From: Bacteroidota bacterium
GTDB lineage: Bacteria; Bacteroidota; Bacteroidia; UKL13-3
Direction: 5' to 3'
Assembly: GCA_947453415.1 (NCBI GenBank)
Contig: CANGGG010000031.1
Span: 1 to 35,178 of the forward strand
Length of the DNA stretch: 35,178 nt
The notes below the pieces were generated by a model that saw only the letters and a program-made list of their open reading frames with translations, was not told the origin of the DNA and ran no database searches. Numbering within the stretch: position 1 is the stretch's first letter; each line of letters starts with the position of its first letter. The position numbers were made by a program, and so were the translations under genes. This document shows positions 20,266-35,059 of the stretch, one piece after another.

Positions 20266-22380
20266 TTATTGCGCAATAATACTAATTGCTGTTCCTCCAC
20301 CTGACGCTAACTTTAAAGTCAGTTTAGACTTATTTGTAATTGTTATTTTTTCAATTACATAAGCTTCAGGATTCTTGTCCCAACTTGCATCGGCAGCATC
20401 TTTATAAATAGTAGCTGTATACTTTTTACCTTTATCCAAAAAGCTAAAATCCATGTTTAAATCTCTGGCATTTTCATCGGTAATACTACCTAAAAACCAA
20501 TTGTTAGTTCCTTTTGCTTTACGAGCAATGGTTAAATACTCGCCTGGTTCCGCATGAATTACTTTGGTATCATCCCAATCAACTGCTACATCTTTTATAA
20601 ACTGAAAAGCATCGGGTTTTGCTTCATAATTTTCAGGTAAATCGGTTGCCATTTGAACTGGACTATATAAAGTTAAATACAAGGCCAATTGCTTGGTTAA
20701 AGTAGTATGCACTTGTTCTTTTGCATCGGGATAATAATTGCTCTTTTTAATTTTAAAAATTCCTGGCGTGTAATCCATCGGACCACCCATTAAGCGTGTA
20801 AAAGGTAAAATGGTTTCATGCTCTGGTGGATTTCCCTCACTCCAAAAATTGAACTCTTGTCCGCGAGCAGCCTCTGCTGCCATAAAGTTAGGATAAGTAC
20901 GGTGTAAACCAGTAGGACGAACTGGTTCATGTGCCACTACCATAATATCGTATTGCGCAGCTTTTTTGATGGCACGTAAATAATGATTTACCATCCATTG
21001 TCCATCGTGAAATTCGCCACGAGGAATGATTTTTCCTACATACCCTGATTTTAAAGCATGGCTTCCAACACTTCCCATTAAACGGTATGCAGAATCAATC
21101 CAACGTTCGTAATTTGTAACACTTCCACTTGTTTCGTGGTGTGTTATCATGCCAACGCCTTTGCTTTGCGCATAAGCATTTAAACCTTTAAAATCGTAAT
21201 CGGGATAAGGAGTTACAAAATCAAAAACATCTTCTTTCCATTTACCAAACCAATCTTCCCAGCCATCGTTCCAACCTTCTACTAACACCCCACCAAAACC
21301 ATTTTTAGCAGCAAAATCAATGTATTTTTTGGTGTTTTCAGTAGTTGCACCATGTTTGGTTTTTGTCTTTTGTTTTCCGTCTGAACCTGCATCACTGGCC
21401 GATTGTCCTCCAGCAAAATCCCATGTTGAAAGTCCTAAATGCATTTCTAACCAAATGCCACAATACTTCATTGGTTTGATATAATTGGTGTTGGTTAACT
21501 TACAAGGTTCATTTAAATTTAAAATGGTTTTTGAAGCAATAATATCTCTTGCATCATCGCTAATAATAATGGTTCTCCAAGGAGTGCTGCATGGTGCGCG
21601 CATGTATGCTTTATTGCCAACGGCATCGTTAGCCAAAGTTGATGTAGCTTCAAAAGTTGATAAATTAAATTTTAAATCCATAGCAGGATAATTAATTAAC
21701 GCAGCTTCGTGAATATTTACATACACATTGTCTTTGGTTTTTATCATTAAAGGAGTTTGAACAAATGCTCCTTTGATAGGAGTAGCAGTAAAAATTGCAC
21801 CATCGCGTTTCTTCGCTAATTTTTCAATTTCCGAAATTTGTGAAGTGTTATAAGTGTATTCGTTGGTATCAAAATCGCCTGGCATCCACCAAATTTTATG
21901 GTCACCGGTTAAGTTAAATGTGCTTAATTCATCGGCTACTACAAAATGGAATAAATTAGGCTGCTCAGGAAAATGATACCTGAATCCAACACCATCGTTA
22001 AACACCTTAAACACCACTTGAAGTATGCGCGGCTTTTCCCCTCTTTCTTTTAAAGTAATGGCTATTTCTTTATAGTTGTTTACAATGGTTTTAGTTTCGC
22101 CCCAAACAGGAGTCCAAGTTTCGTTAAAGTTACTTGAGTCAACTTGCAAAATGCTAAAGTTATTCAATAAATCAGCTTGGTCATTTATTTTAAAACCCAA
22201 GTTAGAAGTTTCTACAATGGGCTTGTTTTTATAATTTACATTATAAACTAAAGCACCAGCCGCGTTTAATTGAAGTGAAACGGAAATCTTTTTGTTAGGG
22301 GAATTTACTGTAAAAGTTTGCGCAGAAACTGCACAAGTACTTGCCAATAAAATAATACTGAGTAATTTTTTAATTTTCAT
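20266..22380 (-). CDS. GH97 alpha-glucosidase (SusB-like, inverting type)
   Basis: A secreted glycoside hydrolase of family 97, 704 residues, with signal peptide MKIKKLLSIILLASTCAVSA. The order is N-terminal beta-sandwich (about 22-290), TIM barrel (about 300-600) and C-terminal sandwich. Catalytic and calcium residues of SusB are preserved with the same spacing: Glu368 (VEGW), Glu416 (HHETSG), Glu485 (AHEPV) and Glu509 (GQEFN). These correspond to SusB E391, E439, E508 and E532. That set belongs to the inverting alpha-glucosidases, not the retaining alpha-galactosidase branch. It is downstream of the PUL but separated from it by 529 bp of repeats and has its own terminator, so co-regulation is uncertain. 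Confidence 0.93.
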   Translation of the reverse strand: MKIKKLLSIILLASTCAVSAQTFTVNSPNKKISVSLQLNAAGALVYNVNYKNKPIVETSNLGFKINDQADLLNNFSILQVDSSNFNETWTPVWGETKTIVNNYKEIAITLKERGEKPRILQVVFKVFNDGVGFRYHFPEQPNLFHFVVADELSTFNLTGDHKIWWMPGDFDTNEYTYNTSQISEIEKLAKKRDGAIFTATPIKGAFVQTPLMIKTKDNVYVNIHEAALINYPAMDLKFNLSTFEATSTLANDAVGNKAYMRAPCSTPWRTIIISDDARDIIASKTILNLNEPCKLTNTNYIKPMKYCGIWLEMHLGLSTWDFAGGQSASDAGSDGKQKTKTKHGATTENTKKYIDFAAKNGFGGVLVEGWNDGWEDWFGKWKEDVFDFVTPYPDYDFKGLNAYAQSKGVGMITHHETSGSVTNYERWIDSAYRLMGSVGSHALKSGYVGKIIPRGEFHDGQWMVNHYLRAIKKAAQYDIMVVAHEPVRPTGLHRTYPNFMAAEAARGQEFNFWSEGNPPEHETILPFTRLMGGPMDYTPGIFKIKKSNYYPDAKEQVHTTLTKQLALYLTLYSPVQMATDLPENYEAKPDAFQFIKDVAVDWDDTKVIHAEPGEYLTIARKAKGTNNWFLGSITDENARDLNMDFSFLDKGKKYTATIYKDAADASWDKNPEAYVIEKITITNKSKLTLKLASGGGTAISIIAQ

Positions 22381-22425
22381 TTGATTATTTTCTTTGAAAC
22401 AAAAATAAACTTTTTAGTGGGAGAA

Positions 22426-22583
<158 letters not shown>

Positions 22584-22584
22584 A

Positions 22585-22692
22585 TTATTTATGTTGATTG
22601 AGCATCCATTCATATGTTTCTTTGATTTGATATTCACGCGTCCAAAAATCGTGCATGTCAAAATCAAAAATTTCTAATTTTATATCTTTCAT
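22585..22692 (-). CDS. Possible small ORF or gene fragment, 35 aa
   Basis: An ATG-to-TAA frame of 35 codons, MKDIKLEIFDFDMHDFWTRE and then a helix-like YQIKETYEWMLNQHK. It starts just after the repeat array. I do not recognise it. Its FDMHDF motif resembles FDMHNF in the next fragment (22739-22858), so both may be debris of related short genes. Coding status is uncertain. Confidence 0.3.
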   Translation of the reverse strand: MKDIKLEIFDFDMHDFWTREYQIKETYEWMLNQHK

Positions 22693-22738
22693 TACAGTCT
22701 TTTAGTTTTTTAAAAAAATATTGATTGAATATTGAAGA

Positions 22739-22858
22739 TCAAAGACAATAGAAATTTCTGACGTTGTAAGTGTTGTGATTAAACCCTTCCCAAATTAAAT
22801 TTGTAAATTCATTTAATGAATCCGCACCATTATTTTGTTCAACATCAAAATTATGCAT
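22739..22858 (-). pseudogene. Possible gene fragment, 39 codons, related to the neighbour
   Basis: A frame open from 22858 (ATG) to TGA at 22739 gives MHNFDVEQNNGADSLNEF and a short remainder. It is open upstream for about 12 more codons, which reads RNIEFFDMHNFDVE. The FFDMHNF core parallels FDFDMHDF in the 35-aa frame. No homologue comes to mind. The rest of 22384-22909, outside the repeats and these frames, shows nothing I can identify. Confidence 0.25.
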
Positions 22859-22909
22859 ATCAAAAAATTCAATATTCCGATACGTTGGAAATATTCAAGT
22901 AATAGTAAA

Positions 22910-24367
22910 TTAGAATAAAATAGATTGAATGGTATGTGCAATACTTTTAACAGAAACAGATTGATTTCCTAATTGTATCATATAATTAATTTCTTTGTCG
23001 CCATCATTCATTACTACTACACAAATTTTTCCATCTTTGTTTTTAAATGCAGTTGCTTTAAGGCTACTTCTGCTTGATGAGCAGGCAATTCGTTTAGCTC
23101 CAGGACGAACAAATTTTGAAAAATGCCCGATATAATAAAACGCATTGGTATAAATAATTTCATTGGTTTGTGTGTTTACATGAACGGGTGCAAAGCAAAA
23201 ATTCCCCACATGATTTGGACCACCTTTTTCATCTAAAAAAATGTTCCAATCAGTAAAGCCAGTAAGGCCATTGTTAAAATCTTTTATCATTGATTTTGCA
23301 TAAAACTCACCAATATTCCAATTATAATATTTTGCTTCATTGAACACTTCTTTACAACCTTCGGTAAAGAACAAATTTTTACTTGGATAAGTTTCATTTA
23401 CTAAACTAATATTATCGTGCATTTGTTCCCCACCAGTCCAGGTTTCATACCAATGGTATCCAATACCCCATACATATTTGGCAGCTTCTTTATCGGCTAA
23501 AATTACATTTACTCTTTGAAAAATTAAATCGCGGTTATGATCCCACACAATGATTTTCTTTTTTGATAAACCTGCTTTAACTAAAGTTGGACCTAAGTAT
23601 TTTTTCAAAAAATCTCTTTCTTCCTCAGCTGTATATATGCACGATTCCCAGCGTTGGGTTGCCATAGGCTCATTTTGAATAGTTAAACCCCAAACCGGAA
23701 CTCCTAACTTTTCATATTCATTGATGAATTTTACATAATAATTAGCCCACGATTTGTAATACATTGGCAATAATTTTCCGCCTTTTAACATGTTGTTATT
23801 ATCTTTCATAAAAGCTGGTGGACTCCATGGAGAAATGAACAATTTTAAGTTTTGTTTAGTCATGTTAAATGCCTTTTGAATTAAAGGGATTTTATACAAA
23901 GTATCGGGTGCAATATTGAAAGTTTTTAAGTCTTTATCGCCTTCTTGCACATAGGTATAACTACCACTTGAAAAATCGCAACTATTCATATTGGTACGAA
24001 TTAAAGAATAGCCAATTCCTTTTTGCGGATGAAAAAATGATTCCAATAATTTTTGTTGTGATTCAGCGGAAACTTTAGCAAAAGTTTCGGAACTTGCATC
24101 GGTAATGGCGGCACCTATTCCTATTATTTCTTGAAAGGTTTTGGTGGTATCAATAAAAATGGCAATTTCAGTTTCTTTAGGTTGTACCTGAGGTTTAAAT
24201 TCAATCGAATCAGAAATGCTAATACGCATATTATTTTCGGCAGAAGTGGTGTAAACCAATACTTTGTTTTTGGGAAAATTAACCTGAGCTACTAATGAAT
24301 GAATGAAAAAAAAAGATGATAGAATAGCAAGAGTTTTTCTATTTAGAATCTGGCGAATATTTAACAT
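22910..24367 (-). CDS. GH30 glycosidase, GH30_1-like (glucosylceramidase/beta-glucosidase type)
   Basis: A 485-residue secreted GH30 enzyme with an N-terminal signal region (TLAILSSFFFIHSLVAQ, about 12-28). The acid/base is Glu233 in TIQNEPMA and the nucleophile is Glu336 in FFTEGCKE. The sequence follows human glucocerebrosidase through much of the barrel: GIGAAITDA, IGYSLIRTNMNSCDFS, SPWSPPAFMK, WDHNRD, TGFTDWNIFLDEKGGPNHVGNF and FYYIGHFSKFVRPGAKRI. That points to subfamily GH30_1. Likely it removes beta-linked glucose (or related sugar) from oligosaccharides in the periplasm. It is the last gene of the PUL, 59 bp after the GH30_3-like gene. Confidence 0.9.
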   Translation of the reverse strand: MLNIRQILNRKTLAILSSFFFIHSLVAQVNFPKNKVLVYTTSAENNMRISISDSIEFKPQVQPKETEIAIFIDTTKTFQEIIGIGAAITDASSETFAKVSAESQQKLLESFFHPQKGIGYSLIRTNMNSCDFSSGSYTYVQEGDKDLKTFNIAPDTLYKIPLIQKAFNMTKQNLKLFISPWSPPAFMKDNNNMLKGGKLLPMYYKSWANYYVKFINEYEKLGVPVWGLTIQNEPMATQRWESCIYTAEEERDFLKKYLGPTLVKAGLSKKKIIVWDHNRDLIFQRVNVILADKEAAKYVWGIGYHWYETWTGGEQMHDNISLVNETYPSKNLFFTEGCKEVFNEAKYYNWNIGEFYAKSMIKDFNNGLTGFTDWNIFLDEKGGPNHVGNFCFAPVHVNTQTNEIIYTNAFYYIGHFSKFVRPGAKRIACSSSRSSLKATAFKNKDGKICVVVMNDGDKEINYMIQLGNQSVSVKSIAHTIQSILF

Positions 24368-24426
24368 TTAAAAATATTTTTTTATTGGTTGCTATGCAAT
24401 GAATAATTTTAAAAAAAGGAAAAAAA

Positions 24427-25860
24427 CTACCATTTAAAAGTAACCAAACTACCTGGTTCTATTAAATAATTAAAAGATTTTCCGTTTTCATTGATTTGAA
24501 TTTTTTGAGAAATAGATTGATGATTATAAGCCAATAAAACTTTAGTGCCATCGGTATTAATATAAGCAACTTGTGATATTCCGGCATTGCGAGTATCGGC
24601 AGTTACAATTCTTTTTGCGTTATAAAGCACAAACTTTGAAGCATGTCCAAGCAAATAATATTCTATGTTTTTTTGGATTTGATTGTTAACAGAGTTAACA
24701 GCAATCACTCCTCTACAATCTTGGCAACCACCATTTCTGGGACCAAAATTTTCGTCTAATGCTAAGTTCCAAAACAGCACATTTTTAGCATCATTTCTAG
24801 GTGCACCAACAATTAAATTTTCGGTGTTCCATGCTAGGTTACTGCCAAAATCTTTTGCCCATTCGCCACCTGAACATTCGGTAAAATAAATTCCTTTATC
24901 AGGATACTGAGTTGAAACTTGACTCATGGCACCTACGCTTCCCCCATAACAATGAAAAGCAGTTCCGCTTATATATTGTCTTGCAGCCGAATCGGCAAGC
25001 ACTGTAATAGGATAATCTGGTCGATCCCAATTATGGTCGTAAATTAAAATTTTTGTTTTGATATTGTTTTTTGCAAAAGCAGGACCGATTGCATTTTTTA
25101 TAAAATTAATTTGTTCCTGAGCCGACATTTCTAAACTTAAATATGGCGCGGCATATAAGGGTTCATTTTGAATGGTAATGCTATTTATTGTAATACCATA
25201 ACTTGCAAATGCATTAATATATTTAACAAAATAATTAGCATAAGTATTATAAATGGTTGGGTCTAATTTGCCCCCATTTATCAGACTTTTGTTTAATTTC
25301 ATCCAAGCAGGCGCGCTCCAAGGAGATGCCATTATTTGTACATTTGGATTAATGGCAAGAATTTCTTTAAGAACAGGAATTAAGTATTCCTCTTCAGTTG
25401 CAATACTAAAACTGGTAAGCGCTGTGTCTTTTTTATCTAATGCAATATCATTGTAAGTATAGTTGGTTGAGGAGAAATCGGAGGCTCCAATAGTTAAACG
25501 CAAATAACTTATTCCAATACCAGTATTAGGGTCAAAAAGATCTTTTAAAATATTGATTCGCTGAATAGATGAAAGGTTTTTCATTAACACATAGGCCGAG
25601 GAACCAGTAAGCGCAGCGCCAAATCCCTCCATTGACTGACGTGTTTTAACAGCATCAATATCAATATTTACATCAGCAGTAATATTGGTTGAAAATTTAA
25701 TATTTATGGGTTGCTTGTAAAGCAAAATACTCCCATCGTGGCTTGTTTTCCAAACACCTATTGTTCCATCGGTAGGATTATTACTACTTGGTGGAATTAA
25801 AATTTCTTTCCCTTTGCAGCTTATTTGAATAATTAATAACAAAAATATAAAACGAATCAT
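24427..25860 (-). CDS. GH30 lipoprotein, GH30_3-like (endo-beta-1,6-glucanase type)
   Basis: A glycosidase with acid/base Glu233 in TIQNEPLYA and nucleophile Glu328 in YFTECSGGEW, numbered from the preferred start. The frame opens upstream to 25914, but ATG at 25860 gives a clean lipoprotein signal MIRFIFLLLIIQISCKGK with Cys15 as lipidation site, so I prefer it (477 aa). LALDENFGPRNGGCQDCRGV near the C-terminus is characteristic of GH30_3 beta-1,6-glucanases. A surface lipoprotein would cut the polymer outside and pass fragments to SusCD. It lies downstream of the T9SS-sorted protein and next to a second, diverged GH30. Confidence 0.9.
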   Translation of the reverse strand: MIRFIFLLLIIQISCKGKEILIPPSSNNPTDGTIGVWKTSHDGSILLYKQPINIKFSTNITADVNIDIDAVKTRQSMEGFGAALTGSSAYVLMKNLSSIQRINILKDLFDPNTGIGISYLRLTIGASDFSSTNYTYNDIALDKKDTALTSFSIATEEEYLIPVLKEILAINPNVQIMASPWSAPAWMKLNKSLINGGKLDPTIYNTYANYFVKYINAFASYGITINSITIQNEPLYAAPYLSLEMSAQEQINFIKNAIGPAFAKNNIKTKILIYDHNWDRPDYPITVLADSAARQYISGTAFHCYGGSVGAMSQVSTQYPDKGIYFTECSGGEWAKDFGSNLAWNTENLIVGAPRNDAKNVLFWNLALDENFGPRNGGCQDCRGVIAVNSVNNQIQKNIEYYLLGHASKFVLYNAKRIVTADTRNAGISQVAYINTDGTKVLLAYNHQSISQKIQINENGKSFNYLIEPGSLVTFKW

Positions 25861-25936
25861 AAAGCCTTGCATAGAGGTATTTGGATTAAAATTAAAATAC
25901 AATATTACACCCAAAATGGTGGATGTAATAAAAAAA

Positions 25937-26050
25937 ATAGCAATGGGAAACTAAATATCCCCATTGACTATTTTTTAAATGAAAACAAAAAGAAAAAGGT
26001 CATATTAAACACTAAAAACCATTTTATGAAAAAATTAAAGACCTTTTTCT
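25937..26050. other. Intergenic segment with two inverted repeats
   Basis: First, CAATGGG (25941-25947) pairs with CCCATTG (25960-25966). ATAG/CTAT flanks it with one bulged base and T-rich tails lie on both sides, so it can terminate in either direction. Second, AGAAAAAGGTC (25991-26001) pairs perfectly with GACCTTTTTCT (26040-26050) over a 38-nt loop. A 15-codon plus-strand frame (MKKLKTFFYLFKKLS) starts in the loop; I doubt it is a gene. The segment lies between the T9SS-sorted protein and the GH30 lipoprotein and may tune expression of the enzymes. Confidence 0.5.
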
Positions 26051-26067
26051 ATTTGTTTAAAAAACTT

Positions 26068-26089
26068 AGCTAAGCAAATTTGCTTAGCT
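26068..26089. terminator. Perfect 22-bp palindrome, terminator of the T9SS protein gene
   Basis: The 11-base arms AGCTAAGCAAA/TTTGCTTAGCT are exactly symmetric and flanked by T-rich sequence on both sides. It lies 15 bp after the stop at 26105 and should end or reduce transcription from the susCD side before the GH30 genes. Confidence 0.75.
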
Positions 26090-26104
26090 TTTTAAATTGT
26101 TAAA

Positions 26105-27100
26105 TTAGTTAACAATAAATCTTTTTACAGATTTGCTACCGTTGTTAGTTACTTCTAAAAGATATACTCCTTTTGAGAATTCAGCAACGGAAACTCTTTT
26201 TACAAAGTTAGATTCAGTTCTGTTCATAGTTTCTGATGAAACTAAAACACCACTAATTGAATATACATTAAATTGGATTTCGTTTTTGTTAGCTGATTCA
26301 AATTTTACATTTATGTAGTCACTAGAAATAGTTGGAAAAACTTCGAAGTTAAAAGCACTTTCTGCATTATTAACACCAACGTTAATTTGAGTTTCAGTAC
26401 AAGTATTGAATTTGTAGTTTTTAACACTTCCGTCACCAGCAGGCATCGTATATAATCTGTTATGACTAGTTGCATCAGCACAAGGAGCGCCTACAGCAGT
26501 TTCGTCTTTACCCCAAGAGCTACCGTTTACATATTTGTATTCAATTTTAGTAAGTGAAGCTAAAACAGGATAAGTACATTTATAAACTGTTCCACTGTGT
26601 AAAGTTAATTTAGTAAAGCTAGGATTCCATCCGTTGAAAAAACCCGCAACGTGAACACCAGATGTATCCACAGTTAATCCTTCCATATCTACATAAAAAG
26701 TGATATTTTTAACAGGAACAGAAGATGGACATTGGTTAAAAGCAACTGTAGGAACTACCATATCAGTTAAACCAGCTGAAACAATTCTGTTATGGCTATT
26801 ACCAGTTGTACATGCTCCAGGAGCTGCTTCTTCTTTACCCCAAGAATTACCATTCATAAATTTGTACTCAACGTAATCGCCAGGTTTTGCAACTACAACG
26901 CAAGAATAAATACTTGTAGTTCCTTCTTGAGTCAATACAGTTGTTGTAGGACTCCATCCGTTAAATGAACCAACAACGTGTACGCTATCAGTAGAAACTG
27001 TTAAACCTGTCATATCTACCTTCAAGGTAACATTAACAGTTTGAGCTTGCAACACTACCGCTGCAAACATTAGAGAAAATAGTAAATTGATTTTTTTCAT
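26105..27100 (-). CDS. T9SS-sorted protein with two carbohydrate-binding-like sandwich domains
   Basis: A 331-residue secreted protein. The signal peptide is MKKINLLFSLMFAAVVLQAQ. Two tandem homologous domains follow: about 22-124 (VDMTGLTVSTDSVHVVGSFN) and about 130-234 (VDMEGLTVDTSGVHVAGFFN). Each continues with GW, a Y(K)F/Y-N-G-x-SWGK segment and a C-terminal SHNR motif, an E-set/CBM48-like fold. Residues 250-331 are a type A T9SS sorting domain ending KRFIVN. It occupies the position of SusE/SusF in the PUL and probably binds glycan at the cell surface; that role is inferred. Its leader carries a tetranucleotide repeat next to the start codon. Confidence 0.88.
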   Translation of the reverse strand: MKKINLLFSLMFAAVVLQAQTVNVTLKVDMTGLTVSTDSVHVVGSFNGWSPTTTVLTQEGTTSIYSCVVVAKPGDYVEYKFMNGNSWGKEEAAPGACTTGNSHNRIVSAGLTDMVVPTVAFNQCPSSVPVKNITFYVDMEGLTVDTSGVHVAGFFNGWNPSFTKLTLHSGTVYKCTYPVLASLTKIEYKYVNGSSWGKDETAVGAPCADATSHNRLYTMPAGDGSVKNYKFNTCTETQINVGVNNAESAFNFEVFPTISSDYINVKFESANKNEIQFNVYSISGVLVSSETMNRTESNFVKRVSVAEFSKGVYLLEVTNNGSKSVKRFIVN

Positions 27101-27150: not shown

Positions 27151-28572
27151 TTAGTATCCTAAGTTTTGTGTTAATTTGGGGTTTCTATCCAATTCGTTTT
27201 GAGGAATTGGTAGCACCAATTTGTTTTGAGTTACGTTATAAGTAAATCCTAAATTATTCATGATGCTTAATACTTTTCCAGAACGTTTTAAATCAAACCA
27301 CCTGTGTCCTTCAAAGGCAAGCTCTAATCTTCTTTCCAATAAAATAGAATCTTTTAAACTTGCTTGACTTGTTGCCAAAGTATTTGGCAATAAAGACCTA
27401 TTTCTTACTGTATTTAAATCGGTTTGAGCGCCAGCAGTATTTCCTAATTCATTTTTAGCCTCAGCTTGTAATAAAATAATATCGGCCAAACGAATCAAAA
27501 TATTATTATCGGCTCTTCCAGCTTGTGCTGATCTCTGTTTAAAAGGAAAAGGAACTGTATCGTTAGGATAATGAGCATCTTTCCATGGTAAACTCCCTTC
27601 AAATAATATGGAAGAATGAAGTCTAACAGTATCATTTGCCATTTTAAAAGCTGCTATTAAATCGTTAGAAGGTGTATTAAATTTACGCCAAGATGTATTA
27701 TTCATAGAAGGTGGAAGCCATAACATTGGACCCCAATTAGCTTGATCGCTATTGTTTATAAATTGAATTTCAAAAATTGATTCAGTAGAATTTTCATGTT
27801 TTCCATCCCATAAAAAATCGTAATTTGTCAATAATTTATATGAAGTATTACTTGTTACAGCTTCTGCATATTGAAGTGCTAAAGCCCAATCAGGATTTGG
27901 TTTTTGTGCATATACTTTAGCTAATAAAGCATTGCAAGCTCCAATAGTTACTCTTTGTTTATTTTGTGGATATGCCAATGGAACTTTTTCCATTGCAAAT
28001 TTTAAATCAGCAATAATTGAATTATAAATTGCATCAATAGACGATTTTGGTTGATAAACAACAGCAGGATCTGTAGAATTTACTTTATGAACAATTAAAG
28101 GAACTTCACCCCAAATATTTACCATTTGAAAGTAATGAAATGCTCTTATAAAAGCTGCTTCGCCTAAAATTTCTTGTTTTCTTTGCTCTGTTAAGTCTAA
28201 TGATTGAATATTTCCAACATTGTCTAAAACTGCATTTGCTCTTCCAATAGCTTCATAAAAATAACCCCAATCGCGAGATACATTTCCATTTAAAGCAGTA
28301 GTAGTAAATTCATCTAATTGAAAATTATTTGGATTGTCGCCACCAGAATAACAATTATCAGAAACTACATCATTATTAATATAATAATCAAAAATGTAGT
28401 TTTCGCTAATGAACGCGCTATAAACCGCAATGATACCAGCTTCCGCATCCGCAGCAGTTTTAAAGAAATTTCCTTCCGTAACATCAGAAATTGGTTTTCT
28501 ATCTAAAAAGTCTTTTTTACAACTTACTAATCCAAGAAGTGCAAAAACAATAATGTATATATATTTTTTCAT
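27151..28572 (-). CDS. SusD-family surface glycan-binding lipoprotein
   Basis: The partner of the SusC transporter, forming the lid over the barrel and binding glycan outside the cell. The frame is open to 28674, but ATG at 28572 yields a proper lipoprotein signal, MKKYIYIIVFALLGLVSCKK with LVSC as lipobox, and avoids overlap with susC. That gives 473 residues. Family motifs are DFLDRKPISDVTEGNFF, AFIRAFHYFQMVNIWGEVPL, LLAKVYAQ, RLADIILLQAEAKNELG and the C-terminal RRLELAFEGHRWFDLKRSG. It begins 13 bp after the susC stop and is clearly co-transcribed. Confidence 0.95.
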   Translation of the reverse strand: MKKYIYIIVFALLGLVSCKKDFLDRKPISDVTEGNFFKTAADAEAGIIAVYSAFISENYIFDYYINNDVVSDNCYSGGDNPNNFQLDEFTTTALNGNVSRDWGYFYEAIGRANAVLDNVGNIQSLDLTEQRKQEILGEAAFIRAFHYFQMVNIWGEVPLIVHKVNSTDPAVVYQPKSSIDAIYNSIIADLKFAMEKVPLAYPQNKQRVTIGACNALLAKVYAQKPNPDWALALQYAEAVTSNTSYKLLTNYDFLWDGKHENSTESIFEIQFINNSDQANWGPMLWLPPSMNNTSWRKFNTPSNDLIAAFKMANDTVRLHSSILFEGSLPWKDAHYPNDTVPFPFKQRSAQAGRADNNILIRLADIILLQAEAKNELGNTAGAQTDLNTVRNRSLLPNTLATSQASLKDSILLERRLELAFEGHRWFDLKRSGKVLSIMNNLGFTYNVTQNKLVLPIPQNELDRNPKLTQNLGY

Positions 28573-28585
28573 GATAATATTTTTT

Positions 28586-31531
28586 TTAAAAATCAATTTT
28601 AACACCACCAATAATAGTTCTGTATTGCGGATAAGTTCCATAGTCAATTCCTTGTGAAGTGCTACTTCCTCCATCTCTATTTACTTCAGGATCGTAGCCA
28701 GAATAATTAGAAAAAATCCATAGGTTTTGACCACTTACATATAAATCTAATTTGGTAATTTTAAATCTAGTAATCCATTTTTCAGGCACATGGTATGAAA
28801 GGGTAACAGTTCTTAAACGTAAGTATGAACCATCTTCAATAAATCGGTCACTAATTCTTGTATTTTTATTTGGGTCGCCAAACATGGCAACAGGCATATC
28901 AGTAATGTCGCCAGGATTTTTCCATCTATTTAAAGTTGCAGCGCTTCCGTTTTTAACATCAAACATTCCTTCCGTTTCTATTCTTGTGGCGTTTAGTACT
29001 TTGTTACCATAACTAACTTGTAATAAAAAATCTAAATCAAAGTTTTTATAGGAAACAATATTGCTTAAACCAGCAATAAAAGTAGGAATTGGAGAACCAA
29101 TTATTTTTCTATCAGCATCTGTAATTTGTCCATCACCATTTAAGTCGGCAAATACTAAATTACCAGTTAAAGGATCAACACCTTTACTAACAAAACCATA
29201 GAATGAACCAACAGCATTTCCTTGTTTTATTTGAACAGCATAACCTCTTTCAGGAACATCGCCACTGTAAATAACTTTATCGGCTCCGCCAATATTTAAT
29301 ATTTCATTTTTATTAGAAGAAATATTAAAGTTAGTTGACCAAGTAAAATTAGCCTTTACAATATTTTTAGTTTTAATAGCAAACTCAAAACCCCTGTTTT
29401 CTATTTCGCCAATATTTTGAATTCCACTGCTAAATCCAGTACTTCTGGGCAAATCAACATTTACCAAAAGATTGGTTGTACGTTTTACATAATAATCAGC
29501 GGCAATGGTTATTCTGTATTTTAACAAACTATAATCTAAACCAATATTAAACTGATTGGTACTTTCCCATTTAAGGTTATCATTACCAATAGTTGATGGT
29601 TTAGCACCGGGGTAAATGATTCCGTTAAAGTTATAGTTAGCGCCCAAAGTATATAAACCATAAGAAGCATAATCACCTATGTTTTGATTACCGGTAGTAC
29701 CAGCACTTAATCTAAATTTTAAATCGTCAATCCATTTAGTTTGTGGCATAAAATCTTCTTCAGAAATTCTCCAACCTATAGAAGCAGAAGGAAAATAACC
29801 ATATCTATTGCTTTTACCAAAACGGGAAGAACCATCGGCACGAATATTTGCTTCTGCCAAATATTTGTTTTTAAATTTATAAGAAACCCTTCCAATATAA
29901 GAAAGAATAGCCCATTCGGAAGCCGATGAACTTGCATCCATTTTTCTGCTTCCAGCATTTAATGTGGTAACAGCAGCATTTGGATATCCGTTTACAGCTC
30001 CATAAGTAGCTTCATATTTTGATTCTTGAGCAGTATAACCACCCATAAAAATTAAATCATGGTTTCTTATTTGCTTTTTGTATGTTAAAGTATTTTCGGA
30101 TAACCAAACTAATTGTTGGTTTGTTCCTGCAGAACCAACACCACCTTGTGATCTTCCATATTGTGTTTTAAATGGATCTAAGAAATAGTTGTTTTTACTA
30201 TAATAAGTTTCGGTATTAAATGAACTTTTGAATGTCAAATTTTTTATAATGTCATATTCTAAATAAAAACTTCCTACAAAACGCAAAGTATTGGTAGTAT
30301 TGATTGGAGCTTCAATGTTAGCCACAGGATTTTCCCAAGCTTGTAATGGGTTAACTGTATAAGTTCCGTTTGGATTATAAATTCCTATTAAAGTTGGAGT
30401 AGAAAGTGCGCCTAAAATAACGCCACCTTGGTTCACTCGACTATTATCAGGAACATTTTTATACGCAACATTTGATAAGGTTAAATTAGTACCAAATCTT
30501 AAATTTGATTTTATTTCATTAACCACATTTAACCTTACACTTGTTCTTTCAAATCCTGAATTTTTTACAATTCCATCTTGATTTTGATTATTTACAGAAA
30601 AATAATAACGTGATTTATTGCTACCACCAGCAAGAGAAAGTTGGTAATTTGATTGGGCAGCAACCCTAAATATTTCGTTTTGCCAATTGGTATTTATATT
30701 TGGATAATCATTTTTATCTAAACGAGCTGAACCACCGGCATTGATATAGGTTTCATTTACCAAATCAATATAGTCTGATGTTCCTAACATGGGTAGCTTT
30801 TTGGTTACTTCACTTAAACCATAAGAAAAGTTAAAACTTACAACAGGCTTATTGGGCGTTCCCATTTTAGTAGTAATTAATACCACACCATTTGCCGCTC
30901 TAGCTCCATAAATAGCTGAGGCGGAAGCATCTTTTAGTATTTCAACGGAAGCAATATCAGAAGGATTAATACCTTCGGCCGACAATAATGGAATACCATC
31001 TAAAACATACAAAGGTTCATTTCCGGCAGAAAGGGAGGTGGTTCCACGTACACGGATCGACATTTCATTTCCCGGTTTACCAGAATATTGTGTAACTTGA
31101 ACACCAGCTGCTTGACCTTGTAAAATATTTTCTAACCTTGTAAAAGGTTTTTTCTCAATTTCTTTGGTAGAAACAGAAGCAACAGAACCGGTTATATCTT
31201 TTCTTGATTTAGAACCATAACCAATTACAACTGTTTCTTTTAATTGTTCCGAAACAGATTTTAAATTTATTGCTATATCATTTTCTGAATCTATCGTGTA
31301 ATTTTTTGTTTCATAGCCAATATATTTTATTGTTATTACTTCACCTTTTGCAGCATTAATTTTAAATTTTCCTTCAAAATTAGTTGTGGCTCGCTTACCC
31401 GTTAATTTAATTAAAAGGTTAGCACCAACTAAAGGCTCATCTGTTTTTTCGTCTTTAACAATTCCATTGATAGTTTGCGCTGAAAGGGCAAAAGTAAAAA
31501 CTGCAAAAATGAATGTAAAAATTATCCTCAT
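28586..31531 (-). CDS. SusC-family TonB-dependent outer-membrane transporter
   Basis: A 981-residue outer-membrane protein that imports oligosaccharides using TonB energy. Signal peptide MRIIFTFIFAVFTFALSAQ; carboxypeptidase-D-like domain (about 20-95, GIVKDEKTDEPLVGANLLIK); TonB-box/SusC signature ETVVIGYGSKSRKDITGSV; plug domain with ILQGQAAGVQVTQ and PLYVLDGIPL; then a 22-strand barrel ending in a terminal Phe (GGVKIDF). The length is usual for SusC. It heads the PUL and has a well-formed promoter upstream (31669-31700). The GH30 partners suggest a beta-glucan substrate. Confidence 0.95.
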   Translation of the reverse strand: MRIIFTFIFAVFTFALSAQTINGIVKDEKTDEPLVGANLLIKLTGKRATTNFEGKFKINAAKGEVITIKYIGYETKNYTIDSENDIAINLKSVSEQLKETVVIGYGSKSRKDITGSVASVSTKEIEKKPFTRLENILQGQAAGVQVTQYSGKPGNEMSIRVRGTTSLSAGNEPLYVLDGIPLLSAEGINPSDIASVEILKDASASAIYGARAANGVVLITTKMGTPNKPVVSFNFSYGLSEVTKKLPMLGTSDYIDLVNETYINAGGSARLDKNDYPNINTNWQNEIFRVAAQSNYQLSLAGGSNKSRYYFSVNNQNQDGIVKNSGFERTSVRLNVVNEIKSNLRFGTNLTLSNVAYKNVPDNSRVNQGGVILGALSTPTLIGIYNPNGTYTVNPLQAWENPVANIEAPINTTNTLRFVGSFYLEYDIIKNLTFKSSFNTETYYSKNNYFLDPFKTQYGRSQGGVGSAGTNQQLVWLSENTLTYKKQIRNHDLIFMGGYTAQESKYEATYGAVNGYPNAAVTTLNAGSRKMDASSSASEWAILSYIGRVSYKFKNKYLAEANIRADGSSRFGKSNRYGYFPSASIGWRISEEDFMPQTKWIDDLKFRLSAGTTGNQNIGDYASYGLYTLGANYNFNGIIYPGAKPSTIGNDNLKWESTNQFNIGLDYSLLKYRITIAADYYVKRTTNLLVNVDLPRSTGFSSGIQNIGEIENRGFEFAIKTKNIVKANFTWSTNFNISSNKNEILNIGGADKVIYSGDVPERGYAVQIKQGNAVGSFYGFVSKGVDPLTGNLVFADLNGDGQITDADRKIIGSPIPTFIAGLSNIVSYKNFDLDFLLQVSYGNKVLNATRIETEGMFDVKNGSAATLNRWKNPGDITDMPVAMFGDPNKNTRISDRFIEDGSYLRLRTVTLSYHVPEKWITRFKITKLDLYVSGQNLWIFSNYSGYDPEVNRDGGSSTSQGIDYGTYPQYRTIIGGVKIDF

Positions 31532-31798: not shown

Positions 31799-34700
31799 CT
31801 ATATATTTCTAATGTATTCATTTAAAGGCAACTTGTCATCTAACGCCATTTTTTTCTTCAACCTATACTTCGTTTGTTCTACTCCGTTTACCGTTATATT
31901 TAAAATGGAAGCAATTTCCCTATTATTTAAGTCTAAGCGGATAAAACAACACAATCTTTGGTCATTTGAGCTTATTTGAGGATGAGAATTCTTTAGTTTT
32001 TCAATAAAATTCTTATGCATTTCGTCAAAATTAAATTGAAATTGATCCCAATAATCTTCTTGGTTTATTTCATTGTTTATTTCACGCATTACCTTTTTTA
32101 TTTCTAATGAAATATTGCTGCTTTTAGGATCTATCTTCTGTATATTGTTTTTTAAATCACTCAAAAACTGATTCTTATGAGCACTTTGTAATAGCGAAAC
32201 ACTTAATCGTGTTTGCTTGGCTTCTAATTCTTTTGCTAAATTTTCGTTTTTAAGGTTGAGGATTTCTTGCTCTGATTGTTTGGTAAAAACCTCAATTTCC
32301 AAATTTTCATTTCTAAGTCTGAGTAATTCTTTTTCATTTTTCTTAGCTTTAACTTCACGTTCTAAGTTTTCATTTTGAAGTTTTAATATTTCTTGTCCTC
32401 GTTTTTCAATTACAATATATCTTTCAAGCCCCTCGTTTTCAAGTCTTAATATTTCTTGTTCGGTAAGTTTAGCTTGAATTTCATTTTCCAAATTTTCATT
32501 CCTAAGTCTTAGAATTTCTTGTTTATCTCTATTTGCTTTTAATTGGAAACGTTCTTTTTGTCTTTTTATTAAATACATAAAAATTAAAGCTACCAAACTA
32601 AATATCAGAATTATAATCAATAAAATAAACCACCATGATTTCCAAAATGGCGGTTTTACATGAATAGCTATTATCGATTCTTTGCTCCAAGTATTATTCA
32701 TATCTAATACTTTAACTTTTAGCTTATACCTTCCAGGCAATAAGCTTGAAAAGAATGCTCTATGTTCGCCATTTTTTAAAACGTTCCAACTTTTATCAAA
32801 TCCATCTAATAAATAAGCAAACTTCATTTTATTTAAGTTACACAAACCATTTGACGTAAAATCAAAAACAATTGCTTTATCGGCATAATTCAACTCTACC
32901 GTTGATTTTGGTTCATTTAAGCCTTTGGTTAGAATGGTTCTATCGTTATATAATCCTATAACTATAGATTGATTATTCACTTTTAAATCTGAAAATATTA
33001 CGTTTTGAACCGAGTTTGAAATAGCTTCATTAAATGGTTTTATAATAGAATAACCACCTGTGCAGCCAAATAATAAATTATTGTTTTTTAACCGAAAAGT
33101 AGCTTTTTGGTTGTATTGATTATTTTGCAAGTTTTCATCCATTCCAAAATCTAAAATGTTGAAGGTTTTTGCATCTATTCTTGACAAACCATTTTTAGTA
33201 GCAACCCAAATATAACCCAAATAATCTTGCTCAATGGCGTGAATTACATTTGAAGACAAACCATTTTCAGTATTTATTTGTTTAATTTTATCGGTTTTAG
33301 CGTCTAAAATATTAATGCCATTAAACTCCGTACCAATCCATATGAAACCTTGTTTGTCTTGGTAAATACACCTTATTTTATCGCTACTAAGTGCCTTAGT
33401 TGAATCAATATTTGATTGATTATAACGCTTAAAAGTACCTTTTAAAATATCAAATCTATTTAAACCTTTGTCTTCACTAGCTACCCAAACATATTTATTA
33501 TTTGCGTCAAGCAAAACATCTATAATTTGAAAACTAGAAATGGAGGTTTCCTTGTTTTTAACAGGTTTGTAATTAACAAATCTGTTTTCATTGATAATAT
33601 AATTACTTAAACCACCACCTAAAGTACCAATCCATAAATTGCCATTTAGCGCCACTTCTATATCCCATACATTATTATGAGCTATGGAATTAGTGTTATA
33701 TTCATTGGCTTTAAAACTTAGCAATGTGCTTTTTTTGAAGTCGTATAAACTTAAACCATTGGCAAAAGTTCCAAGCCATAGAGAATTTGGTCCCGCTTTT
33801 TTTATACAAGTAAGCGCATGATTTGGAAAAAAACCTGCTCCAACTTTAGCTTTTACTGTTTTATTATTTGCCTTTGGGTCTATATACAACAAACCTTCTC
33901 CATCAGTTCCCAACCAAATTTTACCAAAATCGTCTTCTTGAATGGCTAAAACCGATTTCAAATCTTCGTTTTCATAAATGGCATCATTGGTTAAAAAAGG
34001 AGAAACATTTTGAGAATGAATGTTTAATCCACCATTAAAAGTACCAACCCATAAATTATTTAAATGATCAAAATATATTTGATAAATAGCATTTGAATTC
34101 AGGGATTTGAATTTTCTTTTTGAACTTTTTAAGTTCAAAAACTTATTTGCATTCAAATCAAAATAACTAATACCACCACCATCTGTAGCTATCCAAATTC
34201 TATCTAATGAATCTGTTTCCACATCGGTAATTCTGTTATTCGTTAAACTATTGTTTCCTGTTTCTGCAGTAGAAAAGTGTGTAAATTGTTTATTTGATAT
34301 ATTGTATTTATACAAACCACTTCCTGAAGTACCAATCCATAAATTACCTTTTTTATCCAGTCTGATTGATTTCTCATAACTGTTCATTTTTAATGCATCA
34401 TTGCTATGAATCACATGAGCAGTTTTGGTTTTTTTATCAATAAAATGTATGCCTTCACCAGAGCAAGCCACCCATAAACGTTGAGTTTTATCAAGTGTAA
34501 TATCAAAAACAAAATCAGATGAAAGTTGATTGTTTTCTTTGAAATAATGTGCTACTAAAATACCATCTTCAGTAATACAAATTAAGCCTTCACCAGATGT
34601 TCCAATCCAAATGAGGCCATCATTGTCCTGAAATATTTTTCTTACAGTTAATGTTTTCCAATTGATATTAGAATCTTTTAAATCTAATCTTTTGAATAAA

Positions 34701-35059
34701 CCTGTGCTTTTATCTAATATGGTAATTCCAGCATCTTTATGGCCAACCCAAATATTACCTTTTCTATCTTCCATTAATGAAAGTACAGTGGGACCAGCTA
34801 TTTCATTGGCAGATTTTCCCGCATTGAACAATTTAAATTCAAAACCATCAAATTTGTTTAACCCATAGCGAGTGCCAATCCACACAAAACCTTCTTTGTC
34901 TTGCAGAATGGCATAAACAGTATTATGAGAAAGTCCGTTATCAATGGTTAAATGCTTGAATTCAGGTTCAGCAAATTGCCGCTGCCCGCTAACAATTTCG
35001 GGAAATAGCAGCAGGAATCCAACACATATTTGAATAATATATTTAAATGAAAATGTCAA
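31799..35059 (-). CDS. Membrane-spanning propeller-sensor regulator with coiled-coil ruler and LuxR-type HTH
   Basis: A 1086-residue regulator. The signal-like start is MTFSFKYIIQICVGFLLLFP. Two-component-propeller repeats (WIGT.G.GL.. units, about 30-650) form the periplasmic sensor, followed by a Y_Y_Y domain (about 720-795) and a membrane helix at about 809-831. Five perfect 21-residue repeats at 847-951 form a coiled coil, and a LuxR-like helix-turn-helix is near 1030-1072 (NREIASILNITVNGVEQTKY). There is no histidine kinase or receiver domain, so DNA binding and sensing are in one chain, unlike the hybrid systems of many PULs. It lies upstream of susC on the same strand and is the probable PUL activator. 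Confidence 0.9.
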   Translation of the reverse strand: MTFSFKYIIQICVGFLLLFPEIVSGQRQFAEPEFKHLTIDNGLSHNTVYAILQDKEGFVWIGTRYGLNKFDGFEFKLFNAGKSANEIAGPTVLSLMEDRKGNIWVGHKDAGITILDKSTGLFKRLDLKDSNINWKTLTVRKIFQDNDGLIWIGTSGEGLICITEDGILVAHYFKENNQLSSDFVFDITLDKTQRLWVACSGEGIHFIDKKTKTAHVIHSNDALKMNSYEKSIRLDKKGNLWIGTSGSGLYKYNISNKQFTHFSTAETGNNSLTNNRITDVETDSLDRIWIATDGGGISYFDLNANKFLNLKSSKRKFKSLNSNAIYQIYFDHLNNLWVGTFNGGLNIHSQNVSPFLTNDAIYENEDLKSVLAIQEDDFGKIWLGTDGEGLLYIDPKANNKTVKAKVGAGFFPNHALTCIKKAGPNSLWLGTFANGLSLYDFKKSTLLSFKANEYNTNSIAHNNVWDIEVALNGNLWIGTLGGGLSNYIINENRFVNYKPVKNKETSISSFQIIDVLLDANNKYVWVASEDKGLNRFDILKGTFKRYNQSNIDSTKALSSDKIRCIYQDKQGFIWIGTEFNGINILDAKTDKIKQINTENGLSSNVIHAIEQDYLGYIWVATKNGLSRIDAKTFNILDFGMDENLQNNQYNQKATFRLKNNNLLFGCTGGYSIIKPFNEAISNSVQNVIFSDLKVNNQSIVIGLYNDRTILTKGLNEPKSTVELNYADKAIVFDFTSNGLCNLNKMKFAYLLDGFDKSWNVLKNGEHRAFFSSLLPGRYKLKVKVLDMNNTWSKESIIAIHVKPPFWKSWWFILLIIILIFSLVALIFMYLIKRQKERFQLKANRDKQEILRLRNENLENEIQAKLTEQEILRLENEGLERYIVIEKRGQEILKLQNENLEREVKAKKNEKELLRLRNENLEIEVFTKQSEQEILNLKNENLAKELEAKQTRLSVSLLQSAHKNQFLSDLKNNIQKIDPKSSNISLEIKKVMREINNEINQEDYWDQFQFNFDEMHKNFIEKLKNSHPQISSNDQRLCCFIRLDLNNREIASILNITVNGVEQTKYRLKKKMALDDKLPLNEYIRNI
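32207..32521 (-). repeat. Five tandem 63-bp repeats encoding 21-aa coiled-coil units
   Basis: Residues 847-951 of the regulator are five contiguous 21-residue units. Each begins (Q/K)E(I/L)L.L.NE.LE and is exactly three heptads long. Units differ at many codons, so duplication is not very recent. They sit between the membrane helix and the DNA-binding domain. Confidence 0.85.

Follow-up and report, generated by a model that had tools for sequence, protein, structure and literature searches.

The regulator gene analyzed here, which comes from a group of uncultured bacteria, carries five tandem units of exactly 21 residues, together 105 residues, which are located between its membrane helix and its DNA-binding domain. 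Relatives with a single unit exist; the array goes back to one expansion with one change between five and four units, linker lengths in the family are phase-locked, and the array is under strong constraint. We consider it reasonably likely that the array forms a rigid helical rod, locked in phase and probably dimerized as a coiled coil, which was lengthened by whole units in a one-component PUL regulator.

Regulator and neighboring locus

The following features of the regulator and of the genes next to it were identified in the window, which is the whole stretch of 35,178 nucleotides that was analyzed:

31799..35059, minus strand: regulator gene, 1086 aa, with a TTG start according to the ORF listing
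33197..34885, minus strand: sensor propellers with 13 Reg_prop-like W[IV]G[T] motifs, aa 59-621 (motif scan and Pfam)
32657..32833, minus strand: Y_Y_Y domain, aa 743-801 (Pfam)
32564..32632, minus strand: transmembrane helix, approximately aa 810-832, directly after the PPFW motif at aa 803-806 (read from sequence)
32138..32635, minus strand: one uninterrupted helix predicted by AlphaFold2, aa 809-974, comprising the membrane segment and the array
31835..31930, minus strand: HTH core of the C-terminal DNA-binding domain, aa 1044-1075 (weak GerE match and Foldseek)
28586..31531, minus strand: SusC-like TonB-dependent receptor, the next gene downstream of the regulator (Pfam and synteny in orthologues)
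27151..28674, minus strand: SusD-like protein (Pfam)
20266..27100, minus strand: rest of the locus with a CBM48-like secreted protein, two GH30 and one GH97 (Pfam)

Pfam assigned Reg_prop (E 5.7e-54), Y_Y_Y (E 5e-11) and two weak propeller models (E<=0.001) to the regulator, and the propeller part is presumably periplasmic. Histidine kinase, phosphoacceptor and receiver models did not match at E<=0.001, in agreement with the preliminary description of a kinase-free regulator, and the 293-residue C-terminal part gave no kinase or receiver domain at E<=5. HTH_AraC matched neither the whole protein nor the C-terminal part, and GerE matched the C-terminus weakly (E 0.0055, under the Pfam curated cut-off). 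NarL/LuxR-type DNA-binding domains occupied the top ranks of a Foldseek search with the C-terminal domain, VraR and LiaR being the best matches (target TM about 0.7, probability 1.00, E 0.03-0.09), and the four-helix HTH fold of this domain type is present. According to the excerpted text of PMC3243724, the HTCS of Bacteroidetes combine a sensor of Reg_prop propellers and Y_Y_Y with a membrane helix, an HTH output and a link to PULs. The regulator analyzed here resembles them in all these respects, but lacks histidine kinase, phosphoacceptor and receiver, and its HTH is NarL/LuxR-like, whereas that of the HTCS is AraC-type.

The genes for SusC, SusD, the CBM48-like secreted protein, the two GH30 and the GH97 lie downstream of the regulator on the same strand, which bears out the PUL context noted earlier. 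The listed SusD ORF overlaps the end of SusC (window 28586-28674); SusD matches in the close orthologues L074-L076 and L089 start at residue 25, and translation probably begins about 24 codons downstream of the listed start. The two GH30 paralogues are adjacent to each other and located beside GH97 (window 22910-25914), and the second one resembles the GH30 of the one-unit locus L087 (53% over 444 aa). As a guess, the substrate of the GH30/GH97 locus could be a beta-glucan. Just upstream of the GH97 gene, AATGATG-type direct repeats of 7, 14 and 21 bases (window 22428-22480) lie outside every ORF of at least 100 aa. Another regulator of the host (G000:C30:8388-9668; L002, L003) also lacks a kinase; it has one NEKLE-type unit and is about 33% identical in the C-terminal part.

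Anatomy of the array

In the phase used here the array comprises aa 846-950 (window 32210-32524, minus strand) and consists of five units:

32462..32524, minus strand: unit 1, KQEILRLRNENLENEIQAKLT
32399..32461, minus strand: unit 2, EQEILRLENEGLERYIVIEKR
32336..32398, minus strand: unit 3, GQEILKLQNENLEREVKAKKN
32273..32335, minus strand: unit 4, EKELLRLRNENLEIEVFTKQS
32210..32272, minus strand: unit 5, EQEILNLKNENLAKELEAKQT, whose position corresponds to the single unit of the relatives

Five exact 21-residue repeats had been described before at 32207-32521. This observation is real and the unit length is indeed exact (105 codons, five times 21), but the word "exact" was overstated, as the sequences of the units are only 43-62% identical at the protein and 56-71% at the DNA level. 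Sequence-exact repeats were therefore rejected, and Tandem Repeats Finder likewise reported no array at the unit positions. A comparison of the array with itself revealed an identity of 0.52 at lag 21 and 0.54 at lag 42 vs 0.18 at lag 7 and 0.16 at lag 14, which indicates that the repeat is a duplicated 21-residue segment and not merely a series of heptads. The mean pairwise identity of the units, 0.53, was reached by none of 5000 full and none of 5000 heptad-preserving shuffles. An assembly artefact is unlikely, because five units were found in seven genomes with orthologues that are 58-99% identical.

Relatives and origin of the expansion

The host's family was sampled with 64 genomes, which make up the whole order in the sample. 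Seven of them carry the gene (E<=1e-40), and all seven have five units, including G001, a fragment with a complete array. A scan of named genomes yielded 17 loci, namely six with five units, which probably coincide with six of the seven genes just mentioned, two with four units (L079, L080) and nine with one unit (L081-L088, L090). One unit was also found in L034, L009, L035, L038, L069, L071, L072, L101, L119 and L121, and L120 has one unit plus seven residues, its distance from PPFW to the anchor at the start of the C-terminal domain being 67, which equals one extra heptad. The match in L069 (G445:C39:3730-4218) contains one in-frame TAA and some undetermined residues and is possibly a broken gene or poor sequence. 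With the array as query, only the host's own gene was found among 395 genomes of the phylum (E<=1e-6), and a sequence search of the PDB gave nothing relevant.

The host regulator belongs to a kinase-free Reg_prop/Y_Y_Y/LuxR-like class with a propeller sensor, one membrane helix and a NEKLE unit beside the C-terminal domain. A good last unit (at least 5/6 features, a score reached by 0.3% of random windows from the same proteins) is present in 113 of 129 distinct relatives, host regulator included. A second unit directly upstream reaches this score in only nine of the 129, the seven five-unit and the two four-unit proteins, and the statement in the preliminary description that relatives have a single NEKLE-type unit is thus confirmed. 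The one-unit orthologues L081-L088 from Saprospiraceae and related genomes share the domain order and a C-terminal domain that is 53-63% identical, but differ in having one unit instead of the host's five and a membrane-to-anchor distance of 60 instead of 144. Among the nine one-unit loci, six (L081, L082, L084, L085, L086, L090) have genes for SusC- and SusD-like proteins downstream of the regulator; they were not seen beside L087 and L088, and the flank of L083 is too short to tell. Wherever the flanks of multi-unit loci are long enough, the genes follow each other in the order regulator-SusC-SusD.

A tree built from sequences without the array unites the multi-unit proteins in one clade (100/99), in which L079 and L080, with four units each, group together (98/98). 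Because the multi-unit proteins are a single clade, the one ancestral unit must have been multiplied once; one 5/4 change followed, given here without direction because the tree does not order the five-unit lineages. The consensus of the array units and that of the single units agree in 17 of 21 positions. Five- and four-unit proteins pair best if unit 4 is left out (0.653), narrowly ahead of a pairing without unit 3 (0.644), which puts unit 4 first among the candidates for the unit that the proteins with four units lack.

A lattice of linker lengths in the whole family

Linker length was counted from the residue that precedes the two aromatic positions of PP[WF][YW] up to where the conserved C-terminal domain begins, and was determined for 129 distinct, related proteins found by similarity to the C-terminus of the host regulator. 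Duplicates of the 150-residue C-terminus, hits that start past HMM column 6, hits below 60 bits and the two proteins L113 and L117 with a differing architecture were left out. The HMM anchor placed the 129 proteins, with L114 set by hand at 64. An earlier anchor set, which mis-placed L114 and L115 at 124 and 141 and left 14 proteins unanchored, was dropped, as was a hydrophobicity filter that kept only 59 proteins.

The lengths obtained were 60 (24 proteins), 63 (3), 64 (19), 67 (5), 71 (15), 72 (1), 74 (8), 75 (13), 78 (27), 82 (5), 123 (2) and 144 (7). No lengths fall between these values, which come in steps of 3-4 residues, roughly a turn of a helix. For one-, four- and five-unit orthologues, the anchor lies at a distance of exactly 60, 123 and 144 from PPFW. 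The loop just downstream, used as a control, has gap-free lengths from 49 to 59 plus 46 and 61 (123 of the 129 proteins). On a quick tree with weak deep support, 24 of 27 inferred length changes were 0, 3 or 4 mod 7 (expected 3/7; binomial 9e-7). A second sample from another family, 26 distinct new proteins from 30 loci (L199 has no membrane anchor and the other missing ones were already counted), gave lengths of 67 (3), 71 (14), 75 (4), 78 (3) and 72 (2). The proteins with a linker of 72 (L143, L208, L211) are one residue off the lattice value 71, which is either a genuine exception or the effect of a small displacement of the anchor (PPWYKNS).

The best periods were 3.5-3.67, where the circular statistics are descriptive only, as the 129 proteins are related and were treated as independent; the Rayleigh values should therefore not be read as probabilities. 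A straight helix and a coiled coil cannot be told apart by such a period alone. A supercoiled frame is favored, however, because an addition of 63 or 84 residues keeps the phase with a period of 3.5 and loses it with one of 3.6. The earlier statement that changes by whole units of 21 residues keep the heptad frame agrees with the occurrence of one, four and five units among the orthologues. The array by itself is nevertheless weak evidence for phase-keeping, since unequal exchange after a 21-residue duplication gives multiples of 21 anyway. The evidence for phase-keeping lies in the linker lengths of the whole family and not in the array, and this family-wide lattice is the more general result.

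This also bears on the possibility that the extra units mainly strengthen dimerization or stiffen the stalk, so that distance and phase would not matter in themselves and the expansion would be near neutral. Multiples of 21 would then follow automatically from tandem duplication, and every unit has the same L-N-L-V series with N at position 9 in 37 of 38 units. A length lattice throughout the family, however, needs a phase constraint, which dimer strength alone does not supply, and we regard this explanation as unlikely.

In open-licence PMC text we found no paper that deals with the array, nor one on the lengths of linkers in propeller regulators without a kinase. Multiple-of-seven linkers were reported earlier in PAS-kinase fusions. 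Length lattices as such are already known from photoreceptor linkers: in phytochrome-activated diguanylate cyclases (PadC) the natural linker lengths are restricted and differ mostly by multiples of seven, with an additional -4 class (PMC9587094). The regulator family shares this restriction, but PadC has another sensor and effector, and no multiplied 21-residue unit is mentioned in the excerpted text of PMC9587094.

Predicted helix and hydrophobic faces

A continuous helix is predicted by AlphaFold2. In the model of aa 794-1086, a single chain calculated from six sequences with a pTM of 0.36 that contains no information on dimers, one helix covers residues 16-181 (166 residues) with a block pLDDT of 90-95 in most of the array. 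The same region of the one-unit relative L081 was modeled with a helix of 85 residues. Array hydrophobicity alone does not establish a coiled coil: its 3.5-periodicity was matched or exceeded by 62% of 2000 column-permuted versions, and the best heptad register has hydrophobic residues at 15 of 30 core positions. The lattice of family lengths together with the AlphaFold2 helix would fit a coiled coil. A comparable element is the S-helix, which the excerpted text of PMC1592074 describes as a helical coiled-coil connector of about 40 residues with polar residues at core positions, a conserved ERT signature in the central heptad and occasional joining to HTH domains. The array is similar as a predicted helical connector with polar core residues next to an HTH, but the ERT signature is absent from it.

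The conserved hydrophobic columns of the units lie on two opposite faces, L5, L12 and V16 (with N9) on one side and I4, L7 and A18 on the other, and most of them are near-invariant. These faces could correspond to two registers, in analogy to PadC linkers, for which two overlapping heptad patterns have been suggested to allow a switch of register (PMC9587094), or to a second contact surface. The latter would suit an array to which a partner protein docks, or one that acts as a higher-order bundling element on a two-faced helix. No partner is known, however, and the single unit of the relatives shows the same two faces, which means that the pattern is older than the expansion; we therefore consider docking or bundling improbable.

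Constraint on the array

Relative to its counterparts in two close orthologues, the array differs in 1 and 2 of its 105 residues (dN 0.004 and 0.012; dS 0.39 and 0.41), and the propellers differ in 39 and 45 of 751 (dS 0.22 and 0.23), so that the array is the slowest-evolving of the parts compared. Between proteins the units pair by position, with values of 0.65-0.77 on and 0.48-0.60 off the diagonal, and there is therefore no sign of recent turnover. The preliminary description had suggested that copy-number changes could vary the distance or register of signaling and had proposed to compare the repeat number among strains and orthologues. Such a comparison does reveal one, four and five units among orthologues, so that the invariant number that would have refuted the description is not observed, but the seven host-family genomes have a constant five, and current variability finds no backing in the data. 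That the array is a copy-number-variable tuner, in which units are readily gained and lost between strains and thereby shift signaling distance or strength, is very improbable despite the different unit numbers of the orthologues, given this constancy, the positional matching and the constraint, only two unit-number changes on the tree and a DNA identity of the units that is too low to favor slippage.

The array is rather an old conserved lengthening and not an actively varying tuner. Of the coiled-coil ruler proposed earlier, the coiled-coil-like character and the multiplication of a single ancestral unit with retained phase can be kept, but the ruler is stable and not varying.

Model for signaling through the stalk

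We assume that the phase-locked stalk is part of a one-component transmembrane regulator that would control the adjacent polysaccharide locus. A glycan would be sensed by the periplasmic beta-propellers together with the Y_Y_Y domain, and the membrane helix would continue unbroken into the cytoplasm as a helical stalk, in which two chains probably pair as a parallel coiled coil and which ends in the NarL/LuxR-type DNA-binding domain. Most relatives have one 21-residue NEKLE unit, and the clade with four or five units has a stalk that is 63 or 84 residues longer, corresponding to about 95 or 125 Å if fully helical. The signal may travel mechanically along the helix as a rotation or register shift, and the movement of the helix in each chain would reposition the DNA-binding domains and thereby switch the adjacent locus. 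If the signal does pass mechanically along the helix, length changes would be limited to amounts that keep the phase. Any benefit of the greater length would be a further step, and the simplest guess is that the 63-84 extra residues provide reach from the membrane to the DNA.

A more far-reaching reading, which we offer tentatively and with some doubt, concerns the whole kinase-free family. Its connector might be one phase-locked rod whose permitted lengths are spaced by roughly a helical turn, and the host might represent a natural lengthening experiment. Four three-heptad units that were added and kept would then imply that the glycan signal is transmitted as rotation or register switching through more than 120 Å of extra helix, with the two hydrophobic stripes of each unit representing two registers.

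The C-terminal part of the regulator is matched in 158 of 395 genomes of the class and in 186 of 249 genomes of one family, and this receptor class thus seems to be common in Bacteroidota genomes. With one, four and five units of equal length and the half-heptad steps of the lattice, the family offers a natural series for testing how signals pass from the membrane to the DNA without a kinase, and the stalk could potentially serve as a ready-made adjustable spacer for engineered sensors.
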